Below are positions 12,262 to 49,184 of a DNA stretch of 64,000 nt, piece by piece. The position numbers and the translations under genes are program-made. Numbering within the stretch: position 1 is the stretch's first letter; each line of letters starts with the position of its first letter. The notes under the pieces are model-generated. The model worked only from the letters and a program-made list of their open reading frames with translations. It was not told where the DNA came from and made no database searches. Where the stretch lies: the NCBI RefSeq assembly GCF_028748185.1, contig NZ_CP118164.1, forward strand, positions 806,001 through 870,000, given 5' to 3'. Source of the DNA: Bremerella sp. P1 (GTDB taxonomy: Bacteria > Planctomycetota > Planctomycetia > Pirellulales > Pirellulaceae).

Positions 12262-12440
12262 GTCCCCTCTCCCTCGCAGGGAGAGGGCTAGGGTGAGGGT
12301 TTTCTGACCGATCTTCACCTCACAACGCCAGACGTAGCTTCCGTACCCTTCGGAACCTCGCTTGCGCATGCGCTGCCAATAGGCGAACTGCCCCTCACCC
12401 TAACCCTCTCCCCTTAGGGGCGAGGGGACCGGAGGGTGCT
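12262..12440. repeat. Dispersed repeat of the CTCTCCC...GAGAGGG family
   Basis: Two inverted modules: CCCTCTCCCTCGCAGGGAGAGGGCTAGGGTGAGGG at the left and CCCCTCACCCTAACCCTCTCCCCTTAGGGGCGAGGGG at the right. Related units lie at 19556-19680, 21672-21712 and 54182-54293. Confidence 0.8.
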
Positions 12441-46924: not shown

Positions 46925-47914
46925 ATGGACGCGCGACACCCTAAAGAACCCGCTCATCAGCCGAGTCGCTCGTTTGTTATCGGGGGACAGTACGTAGGGC
47001 CAGGCAATCGGCTCCGTCTGGAAATCCCCGTCGCCAGGCTTCCTACCGGCACCTACATCACGCTGCCGATCGAAGTCTTGCATGGCCCCGTGGAAGGACC
47101 GACCGCCTGGGTTTCCGCCGCTGTGCATGGTGACGAACTGAACGGCGTCGAAATCGCTCGCCTGCTTCTGGAACGGCTGAAACCGAGCAAGTTGATCGGA
47201 ACCTTGATCGTGGTGCCGATGGTCAATGGCTTCGGCGTGATCAATCAAAGCCGCTACTTGCCAGACCGTCGTGACTTGAACCGTTCGTTCCCCGGCTCTA
47301 AGAGTGGCTCGCTGGCGTCGCGTCTCGCTAAGTTGATGATGACCGAGGTGGTGCAGCGATGTCAGTACGGTATCGATCTGCATACCGGTTCCAACCTGCG
47401 TACGAATCTTCCACAGATCCGCGGCGACATGGACGACGAAGAAACGTACGAGTGTGCTCTAGCGTTCGGACCGCCAGCGATTGTGCACTCGGACCTTCGC
47501 GACGGTTCGCTGCGAGCTGCCGCCAATGCCAAGGGGATTAAGGTTCTGCTTTACGAAGCAGGCGAACCGAACCGATTCAATCACGACTCGATTCGCGTCG
47601 GCGTGAACGGCGTAATGCGCGTTCTTTCCTTTCTGAAGATGCTCAAATCGCCGGTCAAGCTTCCCAAGCGATCACCCAAGATGATCCGCGAGTCGACCTG
47701 GGTACGGGCCAAACGCAGCGGGATCGTGCGTCTATTGGTTGAACTGGGTGACGAGGTCGAAGCCGGTCAGCAGATCGGCATCATCGCCGACGTATTCGGC
47801 ACCGAACCCAAGTATCTGAAGGCCCCCTACGGCGGCCTGATCATTGGCCTCTCGAACAACCCGATCGCGCATCAGGGAGACGGTTTAGTTCATGTTGGGC
47901 GGTTGGGGTCCTAG
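46925..47914 (+). CDS. AstE/AspA-type zinc hydrolase (M14-like)
   Basis: 329 residues, ATG at 46925 with AGAAGGA upstream. Zinc-binding motif AAVHGDELNGVE, then LIVVPMVNGFGVINQSRYLPDRRDLNRSFPG and DLHTGSNLRTNLPQIRGD, the aspartoacylase/succinylglutamate desuccinylase set. It removes an acyl or amino-acid moiety from a small substrate. The last third (residues 235-329) is a lipoyl/biotinyl-like strand domain (SGIVRLLVELGDEVEAGQQIGIIADVFG), a feature of this subgroup. Confidence 0.85.
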   Translation: MDARHPKEPAHQPSRSFVIGGQYVGPGNRLRLEIPVARLPTGTYITLPIEVLHGPVEGPTAWVSAAVHGDELNGVEIARLLLERLKPSKLIGTLIVVPMVNGFGVINQSRYLPDRRDLNRSFPGSKSGSLASRLAKLMMTEVVQRCQYGIDLHTGSNLRTNLPQIRGDMDDEETYECALAFGPPAIVHSDLRDGSLRAAANAKGIKVLLYEAGEPNRFNHDSIRVGVNGVMRVLSFLKMLKSPVKLPKRSPKMIRESTWVRAKRSGIVRLLVELGDEVEAGQQIGIIADVFGTEPKYLKAPYGGLIIGLSNNPIAHQGDGLVHVGRLGS

Positions 47915-47916
47915 TT

Positions 47917-48320
47917 GGAAGTTTTCAGTGTTCAGTTTTCAGTAAGAGCCGGCGATGACATATCGTTCGTTTGAGGATTTAGAGGTCTGGAAACGCTCCT
48001 GTAAGCTTGCAGTTCTTGTCTACGAGTCCCTTCGAGATAGCCGCGACTTTGCATTAAAAGATCAGATGCAGCGTTCCGCTGTTTCAATCGCCTCGAATAT
48101 TGCCGAAGGCTCCGAGCGAGGAGGGAAGGATTTCAAACGGTTCCTTCGCGTTGCTCGCGGATCGAGCGCCGAGCTCCGAACCCAATGTTACATCGCTGGA
48201 AAGATCGGAACGATCACTCCTGAGCAAATGCAGAACTTGGTAGACGAACTTAAGCAGATTGCCAAAATGCTAACCGGCTTGGACCAATCTCTTACTGAAA
48301 ACTGAACACTGAAAACTTCC
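47917..48320. mobile_element. 404-bp element: four-helix-bundle gene between 32-bp inverted repeats
   Basis: Left end 47917-47948 and right end 48289-48320 are perfect 32-bp inverted repeats. Each contains three TTCAGT units (TTCAGTGTTCAGTTTTCAGT). The gene stop codon (48303-48305) lies inside the right repeat. It sits 3 bp after the AstE-like gene. No target-site duplication is visible. The element carries no transposase. Confidence 0.7.
47955..48305 (+). CDS. Four-helix-bundle protein (23S rRNA intervening-sequence/Avd-like family)
   Basis: 116 residues, ATG at 47955, entirely within the inverted-repeat element. FEDLEVWKRSCKLAVLVYE, DFALKDQMQRSAVSIASNIAEGSERGG, RFLRVARGSSAELRTQCYIAGKI and LVDELKQIAKMLTGL are the four helices of the family. 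Proteins of this fold are found in 23S rRNA insertions (S23) and as accessory proteins of diversity-generating retroelements (Avd). Here no reverse transcriptase or rRNA is nearby. The basic surface and the flanking repeats suggest DNA or RNA handling linked to the element's own ends. Confidence 0.85.
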   Translation: MTYRSFEDLEVWKRSCKLAVLVYESLRDSRDFALKDQMQRSAVSIASNIAEGSERGGKDFKRFLRVARGSSAELRTQCYIAGKIGTITPEQMQNLVDELKQIAKMLTGLDQSLTEN

Positions 48321-48331
48321 ATCTGGCAAAA

Positions 48332-48364
48332 CAAAAAAAACGACCCATCCGAAAATGGGTCGTT
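48332..48364 (-). terminator. Terminator of fliA
   Basis: On the minus strand ACGACCCAT / ATGGGTCGT around a 6-nt loop, followed by TTTTTTTTG, 32 bp after the fliA stop. Confidence 0.88.
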
Positions 48365-48395
48365 TGTCGCTTGACGGTTCTATCTCGCGGGAACG

Positions 48396-49184
48396 CTAAA
48401 CGGTTCCGAACTCTGGCTTCCGCCGTCCGAGTTGGCTTTGCAGTCGCGAGACGATGCTGCTGTGCATCTGGCTGACGCGGCTTTCGCTCAGGTCGAGCGT
48501 GGCGCCGATTTCTTTCATGGTCAGCTCTTCGTAGTAGTAGAGAATGATGATCAGACGCTCGTTGCGATTGAGCCCCTTGGTCACCAGACGCATCAGGTCA
48601 TTCTTTTGAATGCGACGCGTAGGGTCTTCACCCTTTTTGTCTTCCAGAATATCGATCTCGCGGACGTCTTTATAGCTGTCCGTTTCGTACCACTTCTTGT
48701 TGAGGCTGATGAGCCCGACGGCGTTGGCGTCGGAGACCATCTTTTCGAGATCTTTGAGCGGCATCTGCATATGGTCTGCCAGCTCTTGGTGGGTGGGTGC
48801 TCGTCCGAACTTGGCTTCCAATTGCTTGGTAGCTTCATTCAACTTGCTCGCTTTCGAGCGAACCAGACGCGGTACCCAGTCCATGGTTCGCAGTTCGTCG
48901 AGCATTGCACCGCGAATACGCGGGACGCAATACGTTTCGAACTTCACGCCTCGGCTCATGTCGAACGCGTCAATTGCGTCCATCAAGCCAAAGACGCCTG
49001 CCGAGATCAGGTCGTCGAGTTCGACCCCTTCTGGCAGTCGAGCCCAGATCCGTTCGCCGTTGTATTTCACCAGCGGCAAATAGCGTTCAACAAGTTGGTT
49101 TCGTAGTTCTTTCCGCGACGGGTCTTCTTTGTAGGCTTCCCACAAATGAGACACGTCTTCCCTGGTCGCGGTCGTCGTTGCCAT
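48396..49184 (-). CDS. fliA: Flagellar sigma factor FliA (sigma-28)
   Basis: 262 residues from the ATG at 49184 (GGAGGAACGC upstream). Region 2 shows LVKYNGERIWARLPEGVELDDLISAGVFGLMDAIDAFDMSRGVKFETYCVPRIRGAMLDELR; region 4 shows ERLIIILYYYEELTMKEIGATLDLSESRVSQMHS. Directs late flagellar promoters. It is the last gene of the flhA-flhF-flhG cluster and has its own terminator. Its likely anti-sigma FlgM is at 14960. Confidence 0.93.
   Translation of the reverse strand: MATTTATREDVSHLWEAYKEDPSRKELRNQLVERYLPLVKYNGERIWARLPEGVELDDLISAGVFGLMDAIDAFDMSRGVKFETYCVPRIRGAMLDELRTMDWVPRLVRSKASKLNEATKQLEAKFGRAPTHQELADHMQMPLKDLEKMVSDANAVGLISLNKKWYETDSYKDVREIDILEDKKGEDPTRRIQKNDLMRLVTKGLNRNERLIIILYYYEELTMKEIGATLDLSESRVSQMHSSIVSRLQSQLGRRKPEFGTV

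Follow-up and report, generated by a model that had tools for sequence, protein, structure and literature searches.

A four-helix-bundle gene between inverted arrays of 7-bp units in Bremerella sp. P1, a probable member of a class of very small, widespread mobile elements

The unit and its copies in the genome and the genus

The window analyzed here is a stretch of 64,000 nucleotides, bases 806001 to 870000 of the 6.96-Mb single-contig genome of Bremerella sp. P1. Within it, a perfect 32-bp inverted repeat (47917 to 47948 and 48289 to 48320) bounds a four-helix-bundle gene, as the original prediction, made from the letters of the DNA, had described. This gene matches PF05635 (23S_rRNA_IVP; E 2.4e-32) and TIGR02436 (four helix bundle protein) and is called the IVP gene below. 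The inverted repeat reaches 36 nt at 97% identity (47913 to 47948 and 48289 to 48324), and the locus is laid out as follows.

46925 to 47914, forward strand: AstE/AspA-like gene upstream; left edge of the insertion interval in the empty-site comparison
47913 to 47948, forward strand: left arm, AGTTGGA-AGTTTTC-AGTGTTC-AGTTTTC-AGTAAGA-G, divided into 7-bp units; located where the upstream gene has its stop codon
47955 to 48305, forward strand: IVP gene, PF05635/TIGR02436, 116 amino acids
48289 to 48324, reverse strand: right arm, inverted copy of the left arm; codes for the C-terminal LTEN and the stop codon
48340 to 48365, reverse strand: hairpin resembling a terminator; outside the unit, separating it from the convergent sigma-factor gene
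48396 to 49172, reverse strand: gene for a sigma-70 family factor; bounds the insertion interval on the right

The right arm contains the stop codon of the IVP gene (48303 to 48305) together with the codons for its last residues, again as predicted. The arms had been read as TTCAGT repeats, three of which are indeed visible per arm; the true unit, however, is not this hexamer but a 7-bp tandem (AGTTTTC or AGTGTTC). The inverted-arm score of the unit was 33.5, a value reached by 0 of 633 boxes of the same size along the window (8 of 633 reached a score of 13). The predicted lack of a transposase held, with PF05635 the sole match of the gene above cut-off, no Y1/HUH tyrosine transposase found in the unit, and a 51-aa antisense ORF as its sole further ORF of at least 50 aa. 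Neither a reverse transcriptase (RT) nor a template or variable repeat was found in the unit, and neither flanking gene is an RT. A PADLOC search gave no match up to E 1. Rfam models gave none up to E 1 on 47600 to 48700, and the unit thus has no rRNA match nearby; it sits between the AstE-like and sigma genes, outside any rRNA gene helix. The inverted repeats around the ORF form a stem, as in intervening sequences (IVS) of the S23p type, and the transcript folded with a z of -7.39 (0 of 100 shuffles equally good), the folded stretch including the neighboring terminator hairpin.

A search of the window's own genome for further copies gave one PF05635 match and 52 matches to the heptamer-array pattern (reversed control, 0), which were grouped by hand into 29 loci, the unit included. 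At 7 of the 28 other loci, the pattern was present on both strands close together, forming gene-less palindromes of 70 to 173 bp; the remaining loci carried a single array at the pattern stringency used, with the partner decayed in some. Palindromes inspected under a stricter motif rule (7 inspected loci gave no match and 2 overlapping loci were left out) had a left arm of the TTTTCAG type and a right arm that is its complement. The window gene is therefore flanked by inverted copies of a dispersed repeat, the arrangement that marks REP/RAYT systems. No TTTTCAG arrays were found in the 1.5-kb flanks of the three Y1 transposase genes of this genome, all located outside the unit.

PF05635 was matched in five of nine genomes of the genus (G000, the window's own, to G008). 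Matches to the array pattern on both strands numbered 52 in G000, 32 in G001, 27 in G002, 42 in G007, and 48 in G008, all with a PF05635 match, and 4 in G003, 38 in G004, 0 in G005 (a 68% complete genome), and 0 in G006, all without one. The AstE-like/sigma interval contained the unit in three genomes, with G000 and G002 alike in orientation and G001 reversed. It was empty in G005 and G006, held a short remnant-like sequence in G003 and G004, and held another short sequence in G007 and G008. The original prediction had proposed to look for empty sites in relatives and had named a constant place there as the outcome that would speak against mobility; empty sites exist, and the unit is at a different locus in G008 and inverted in G001.

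The window IVP is the only intact one among the four TTTTCAG-type copies in the nine genomes: at the Trp12 codon, G001 has TAG and G002 has TGA, and the G008 gene has a frameshift close to the C-terminus. This Trp codon is nearly invariant, and the frame is otherwise open in both G001 and G002 (L049 and L050); the two different stops at this codon may be coincidence or something regulated. The remaining codons are under purifying selection, with dN/dS values of 0.064 (G000-G001) and 0.097 (G000-G002) at a dS above 1.3. Because of these values, the unit at the window locus is old, constrained, and kept, and not a fresh insertion. Thus, the predicted minimal mobile unit stands as regards its dispersed repeat, gene-less copies, empty and filled sites, and recurrence across phyla (below), but not as a recent arrival at this locus.

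Ten palindrome places of the window's genome, chosen and bounded by hand (three, L013, L004, and L032, with one weak arm), were traced in five relatives, giving 49 orthologous places. The palindrome was kept in 23 of these under a strict rule, which G000 itself fails at 2 of the 10. Arms were conserved and loops diverged between orthologous palindromes; some places were cleanly empty in relatives, e.g., the 2868090 place in G002. Many palindromes are common to several species, so that activity in the genus at present is no more than a possibility. Two further observations count against the explanation favored below, namely, the 38 pattern matches of G004, which has no IVP match, and the 42 of G007, whose IVP is of another type (arm score 9, no downstream arm).

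Other repeats were seen in passing. The divergent G007 IVP (L051) adjoins an apparent tRNA gene, and a palindrome of GTAGAGA heptamers lies wholly upstream of it. At the 971984 place of G007/G004 (L267/L268), at the 2414655 place (L301/L302), and in the AstE-sigma gap of G007 (L110), another heptamer-like palindrome or array, reading GGGAGAG-GGTTAGG-GTGAGGG and of the CCCTAACCC type, sits where G000 has a TTTTCAG array or the unit; one match of the CCCTAACCC type is also present elsewhere in the window, at 12398. The same intergenic sites are used repeatedly by unrelated repeat families. The 616518 place of G002 (L266) has about 10 TTTGAAG units followed by about 8 TTTTCAG units, an expansion indicating that arrays can grow like simple repeats. 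As a whole, the system in the genus now resembles REP/RAYT, with a single old gene among many dispersed palindromes.

Heptamer arms and occupied sites across bacteria

A scan with an IVP alignment confirmed at least 526 relatives, of which the best 80 were kept and 74 had flanks long enough; these loci are therefore the best-scoring relatives and not a random draw. The 74 loci come from many phyla, and 58 of them had inverted arms with a score of at least 13, compared with 7 of 395 control boxes shifted inside these loci; arms scoring at least 20 were found at 27 of 74 loci and in 3 of 395 boxes. A null built on mismatched pairs was set aside (overlapping loci, maximum 380), and we relied on the shifted boxes and the window boxes. 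We combined the 74 loci with 28 of the 30 best loci of the window's phylum, the window unit, the G008 unit, and 8 plasmid loci into a set of 112. Left out were two loci with an incomplete match (L139 and L150), six with short flanks (L171, L185, L205, L209, L236, and L246), L049 and L050 at the window's site (arm scores 19.5 and 23), and L051 (score 9, a miss). Arms scoring at least 13 were present at 92 of the 112 loci, the window's included; absence of the repeats from other copies had been the second outcome named as contrary to mobility. The 20 loci without such an arm count against the favored explanation.

Over lags of 4 to 12, the best lag for the 87 arms of at least 17 nt was 7 in 74, 8 in 11, 9 in 1, and 5 in 1; for shuffled arms, best lags were evenly spread. 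AG with both columns at 0.8 or above occurred in 48 of the 74 period-7 arms, the next dinucleotide being GT (33 of 74). The unit sequence itself varied widely among IVP loci, although a Neisseriaceae relative with 67% identity to the window IVP had the TTTTCAG unit of the window. Unit similarity tracked protein similarity only above about 60% identity (mean 0.476 over 27 pairs, versus 0.21 to 0.24 below). Coevolution of a specific unit sequence with the protein was weak overall (Mantel r 0.067; 20 of 1000 permutations as high), which weakens the case for specific recognition. Unit length showed slight clustering on the IVP tree, with 9 changes versus a shuffled mean of 11.6 (as low in 2 of 200), a difference to which near-copies contribute. 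An IVP match was found in 199 of 392 sampled genomes of the window's phylum and in none of the rest. A tblastn search for phage IVPs with the window protein gave no match at E 1e-3, a threshold at which distant IVPs may be missed.

Pairs of filled and empty sites were compared on cyanobacterial plasmids. At the first site, Trichormus and Scytonema are filled, whereas the site is empty in Microchaete and N. carneum (two out of six records of this kind), with flanks 96 to 98.5% identical and GTAAT on both sides of the unit. A second site is filled in Nostoc C052_D, N6, and ATCC 53789_a and empty in four plasmids, with TTCTA on both sides in N6 and ATCC_a and TTCTG on the right side in C052_D. 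Between the next two genes, ATCC 53789_c is filled and six others are empty; here there is extra right-hand sequence and no clear repeat. N. edaphicum (L249) has a unit between nrdA and nrdB, where Calothrix is empty at about 85% identity, possibly with TTAG as the repeat (junctions read by eye). Picosynechococcus PCC 7003 (L317) has one between cas10 and cmr3, where PCC 7002 is empty, and Aulosira has one just before a gene end, where three relatives are empty, both with no clear repeat. Gene-less heptamer copies behaved similarly: one is inserted within the N6 IVP gene, one lies at the upstream junction in C052_A and N6, and in C052_B and ATCC_a a second gene-less copy is nested in the upstream-junction copy. 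In ATCC_a, this nested copy has (A)TTTAA at either end, and part of the left flank is missing. Short direct target repeats were thus clear in three of nine comparisons (GTAAT, TTCTA, and (A)TTTAA), possible in one (TTAG), and clear in none of the other five. These filled and empty sites establish that units and gene-less copies insert. Several insertion sites are at stop codons, which may reflect survivorship. At the Trichormus site, Nostoc C052 plasmid E (L308) has a truncated unit with its 3' part deleted, a decay intermediate. The 23S rRNA IVP has been named among CRISPR-linked domains (PMC10910872); the apparent association of IVP and CRISPR may be one of insertion rather than function.

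One unit was found in an rRNA gene: in Azospirillum lipoferum AZO_p2, a 23S rRNA gene encloses an IVP gene together with its arms (GGATGAC-AGAGGAC-GGAGGAC). For the Coxiella IVS, PMC4990558 reports GACAGAT heptamers in tandem ahead of the S23p start codon (three or two by strain), a 28-bp terminal inverted-repeat stem, and RNase III processing; it describes S23/IVP proteins as having no known function, a Xanthomonas relative as a homopentamer, and a role of the ORF in IVS mobility as proposed earlier (Ralph and McClelland 1993, cited there). The solved IVP relatives 2GSC and 2RLD have five chains each. The window IVP also showed weak, nearly full-length similarity to Avd of diversity-generating retroelements (DGRs) (phrog_3206, E 0.0029; Pfam bAvd, E 0.012, below cut-off), so that both kinds of relatives named in the original prediction, those in 23S rRNA insertions and those in DGRs, were recovered.

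Weighing a mobile unit against the alternatives

The window unit probably belongs to a class of very small, widespread mobile elements, which we call IVP units, in which the IVP acts on the heptamer arrays. An IVP unit would comprise one S23/IVP four-helix-bundle gene and inverted arrays, mostly of 7-bp units and often with an AG anchor, and the gene-less palindromes would be its non-autonomous copies. We propose that the IVP ring may recognize the arrays as single strands, either DNA or hairpin RNA, through the spacing of the units more than their sequence. TRAP, a ring protein that wraps repeated single strands, is comparable in kind. Bound by a 7-nt step, the IVP might then protect, copy, or present the ends, and such recognition would let the element and its gene-less copies move or persist, with the IVP itself, a host enzyme, or a resident enzyme perhaps doing the cutting. 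No catalytic motif was recognized in the IVP, which we count against it as the mover of DNA. The classical 23S rRNA intervening sequence would be an IVP unit that landed in rRNA; the extension of this account to every rRNA IVS is extrapolated from the Azospirillum and Coxiella cases. A bolder proposal, possible but doubtful, is that IVP units are a mobile class of their own, with the four-helix ring as a mobility protein that reads arrays in constant steps of 7 nucleotides (in some lineages, 8 or 9) and not by sequence. Such units would have seeded genomes with heptamer repeats, possibly including the STRRs and the TAACTGA repeats of Beggiatoa, and the 23S rRNA IVS would be a special case.

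Since gene-less copies insert too, the IVP gene could instead be a passenger, cargo or regulator, of palindromes recognized by a transposase or RT elsewhere in the cell, an account that we consider rather improbable but take seriously. To its credit, in 392 phylum genomes taken as one common set across the three scans, Y1 matches were found in 158 of 199 IVP genomes versus 87 of 193 others (odds ratio 4.7) and RT matches in 131 of 199 versus 76 of 193 (odds ratio 3.0). This enrichment would fit genomes rich in mobile elements or else a helper, without identifying one, and a helper in trans is therefore possible. However, 21 of the 199 IVP genomes had neither match, and of the 29 genomes with at least 10 IVP matches, 6 had no RT and 4 no Y1, though none lacked both and many are drafts. 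A single gene family within the arms across phyla would be unexpected for random cargo. The arms of Y1/RAYT genes also differ: at 43 control loci (40 from the listed matches and three from the window's genome; flank windows of 400 to 480 nt versus 250 nt for IVP loci), inverted arms scoring 13 were present at 32, a lag of 7 was best in 1 of these 32, and many were GTAG-type hairpins by eye. The arms thus gave no support to RAYT/Y1 as the owner of the heptamer arrays. A version in which the IVP, like Avd, pairs with an RT and hairpin RNA is copied back into DNA appears very unlikely. The Avd similarity is consistent with it, as are the RT matches, of which the window's own genome has two; yet no RT match was found in 68 of 199 IVP genomes, including the 6 IVP-rich ones, and no RT was found in the unit or in its two flanking genes.

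Alternatively, the palindromes could be 3'-end hairpins serving mRNA stability or termination, with the IVP as a conserved RNA-binding regulator and any spread slow and incidental. Arms kept between species as loops diverge, strong purifying selection on the IVP, several sites at stop codons, and the fold z of -7.39 (terminator hairpin included) all suit such a host function. We nevertheless judge it unlikely, given a gene that is matched in 199 of 392 phylum genomes and in none of the rest, that has been lost or broken within the genus, and whose units or gene-less copies have inserted into rRNA, the cas10-cmr3 and nrdA-nrdB intervals, and the IVP gene itself. Moreover, the arms are symmetric on both strands, which one-strand RNA signals are not. 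An ordinary gene with coincidental repeats has a negligible chance of accounting for the data, considering the window boxes (0 of 633) and the shifted boxes (58 of 74 versus 7 of 395).

If the favored reading of IVP units as mobile elements is right, the presence of IVP genes next to CRISPR operons and other unrelated systems may be due simply to insertion at these places. The data tie IVP proteins and dispersed heptamer repeats together across phyla by one rule, inverted arrays of 7-bp units, and point to the rRNA intervening sequences as further members of this class. They also provide objects for tests, namely, an intact unit, gene-less copies, and, on plasmids from cultured cyanobacteria, matched empty sites.

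Relation to known systems

Intervening sequences of 23S rRNA with an S23p/IVP ORF (Coxiella and Leptospira; PMC4990558) resemble the window unit in protein family, in a size of about 0.4 kb, and in a terminal inverted-repeat stem, and the Coxiella IVS also has heptameric repeats beside its ORF. The known IVS lie in rRNA genes, whereas IVP units are found elsewhere too, frequently at stop codons and inside operons, and are accompanied by dispersed copies that lack the gene. Among the openly licensed matches listed, no title or opening of an abstract ties IVP genes in general to heptamer arrays or presents a 7-bp array as a general IVP hallmark; subscription papers mostly fell outside this scope.

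RAYTs are single-copy, vertically inherited genes. Like the unit, the REP/RAYT systems (REPtrons and TIRtrons; PMC3733652) have a gene between inverted repeats, further copies of which are spread over the genome without it. Unlike them, the unit has no HUH or tyrosine transposase, and its ends are heptamer arrays, not GTAG hairpins. REP-type hairpins were seen flanking RAYT-like genes in the window's phylum (L047 and many of L339 to L363). MITEs and insertion sequences resemble IVP units in terminal inverted repeats, gene-less copies, and, in some cases, short target repeats, but IVP units have no recognized transposase, and their ends are tandem arrays variable in length and sequence. Avd, a distant sequence relative of the window IVP, partners an RT and an RNA in DGRs (PMC12875486). 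Unlike a DGR, the unit has no RT, template repeat, or variable repeat.

Dispersed tandem 7-bp repeats are also familiar from cyanobacteria as STRRs, and these heptamer repeats have long been known and remained unexplained. The TAACTGA repeats of Beggiatoaceae, Cyanobacteria, and Bacteroidetes (PMC4679880) are likewise dispersed, tandem 7-bp repeats near or at gene ends; according to the available text, such repeats have long lacked an explanation, the candidates for binding them are S1, Csp, and Csr, and a mobile protein that binds the repeats is conceivable. In contrast to the IVP arrays, they are given no link there to S23 or four-helix proteins, and the words "four helix," "S23," and "intervening" do not occur in that text. 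We conclude that the association between IVP genes and inverted heptamer arrays is real, general, and open to testing, and we classify it as a variant of the S23-type IVS that stands a fair chance of being a mobility class of its own.
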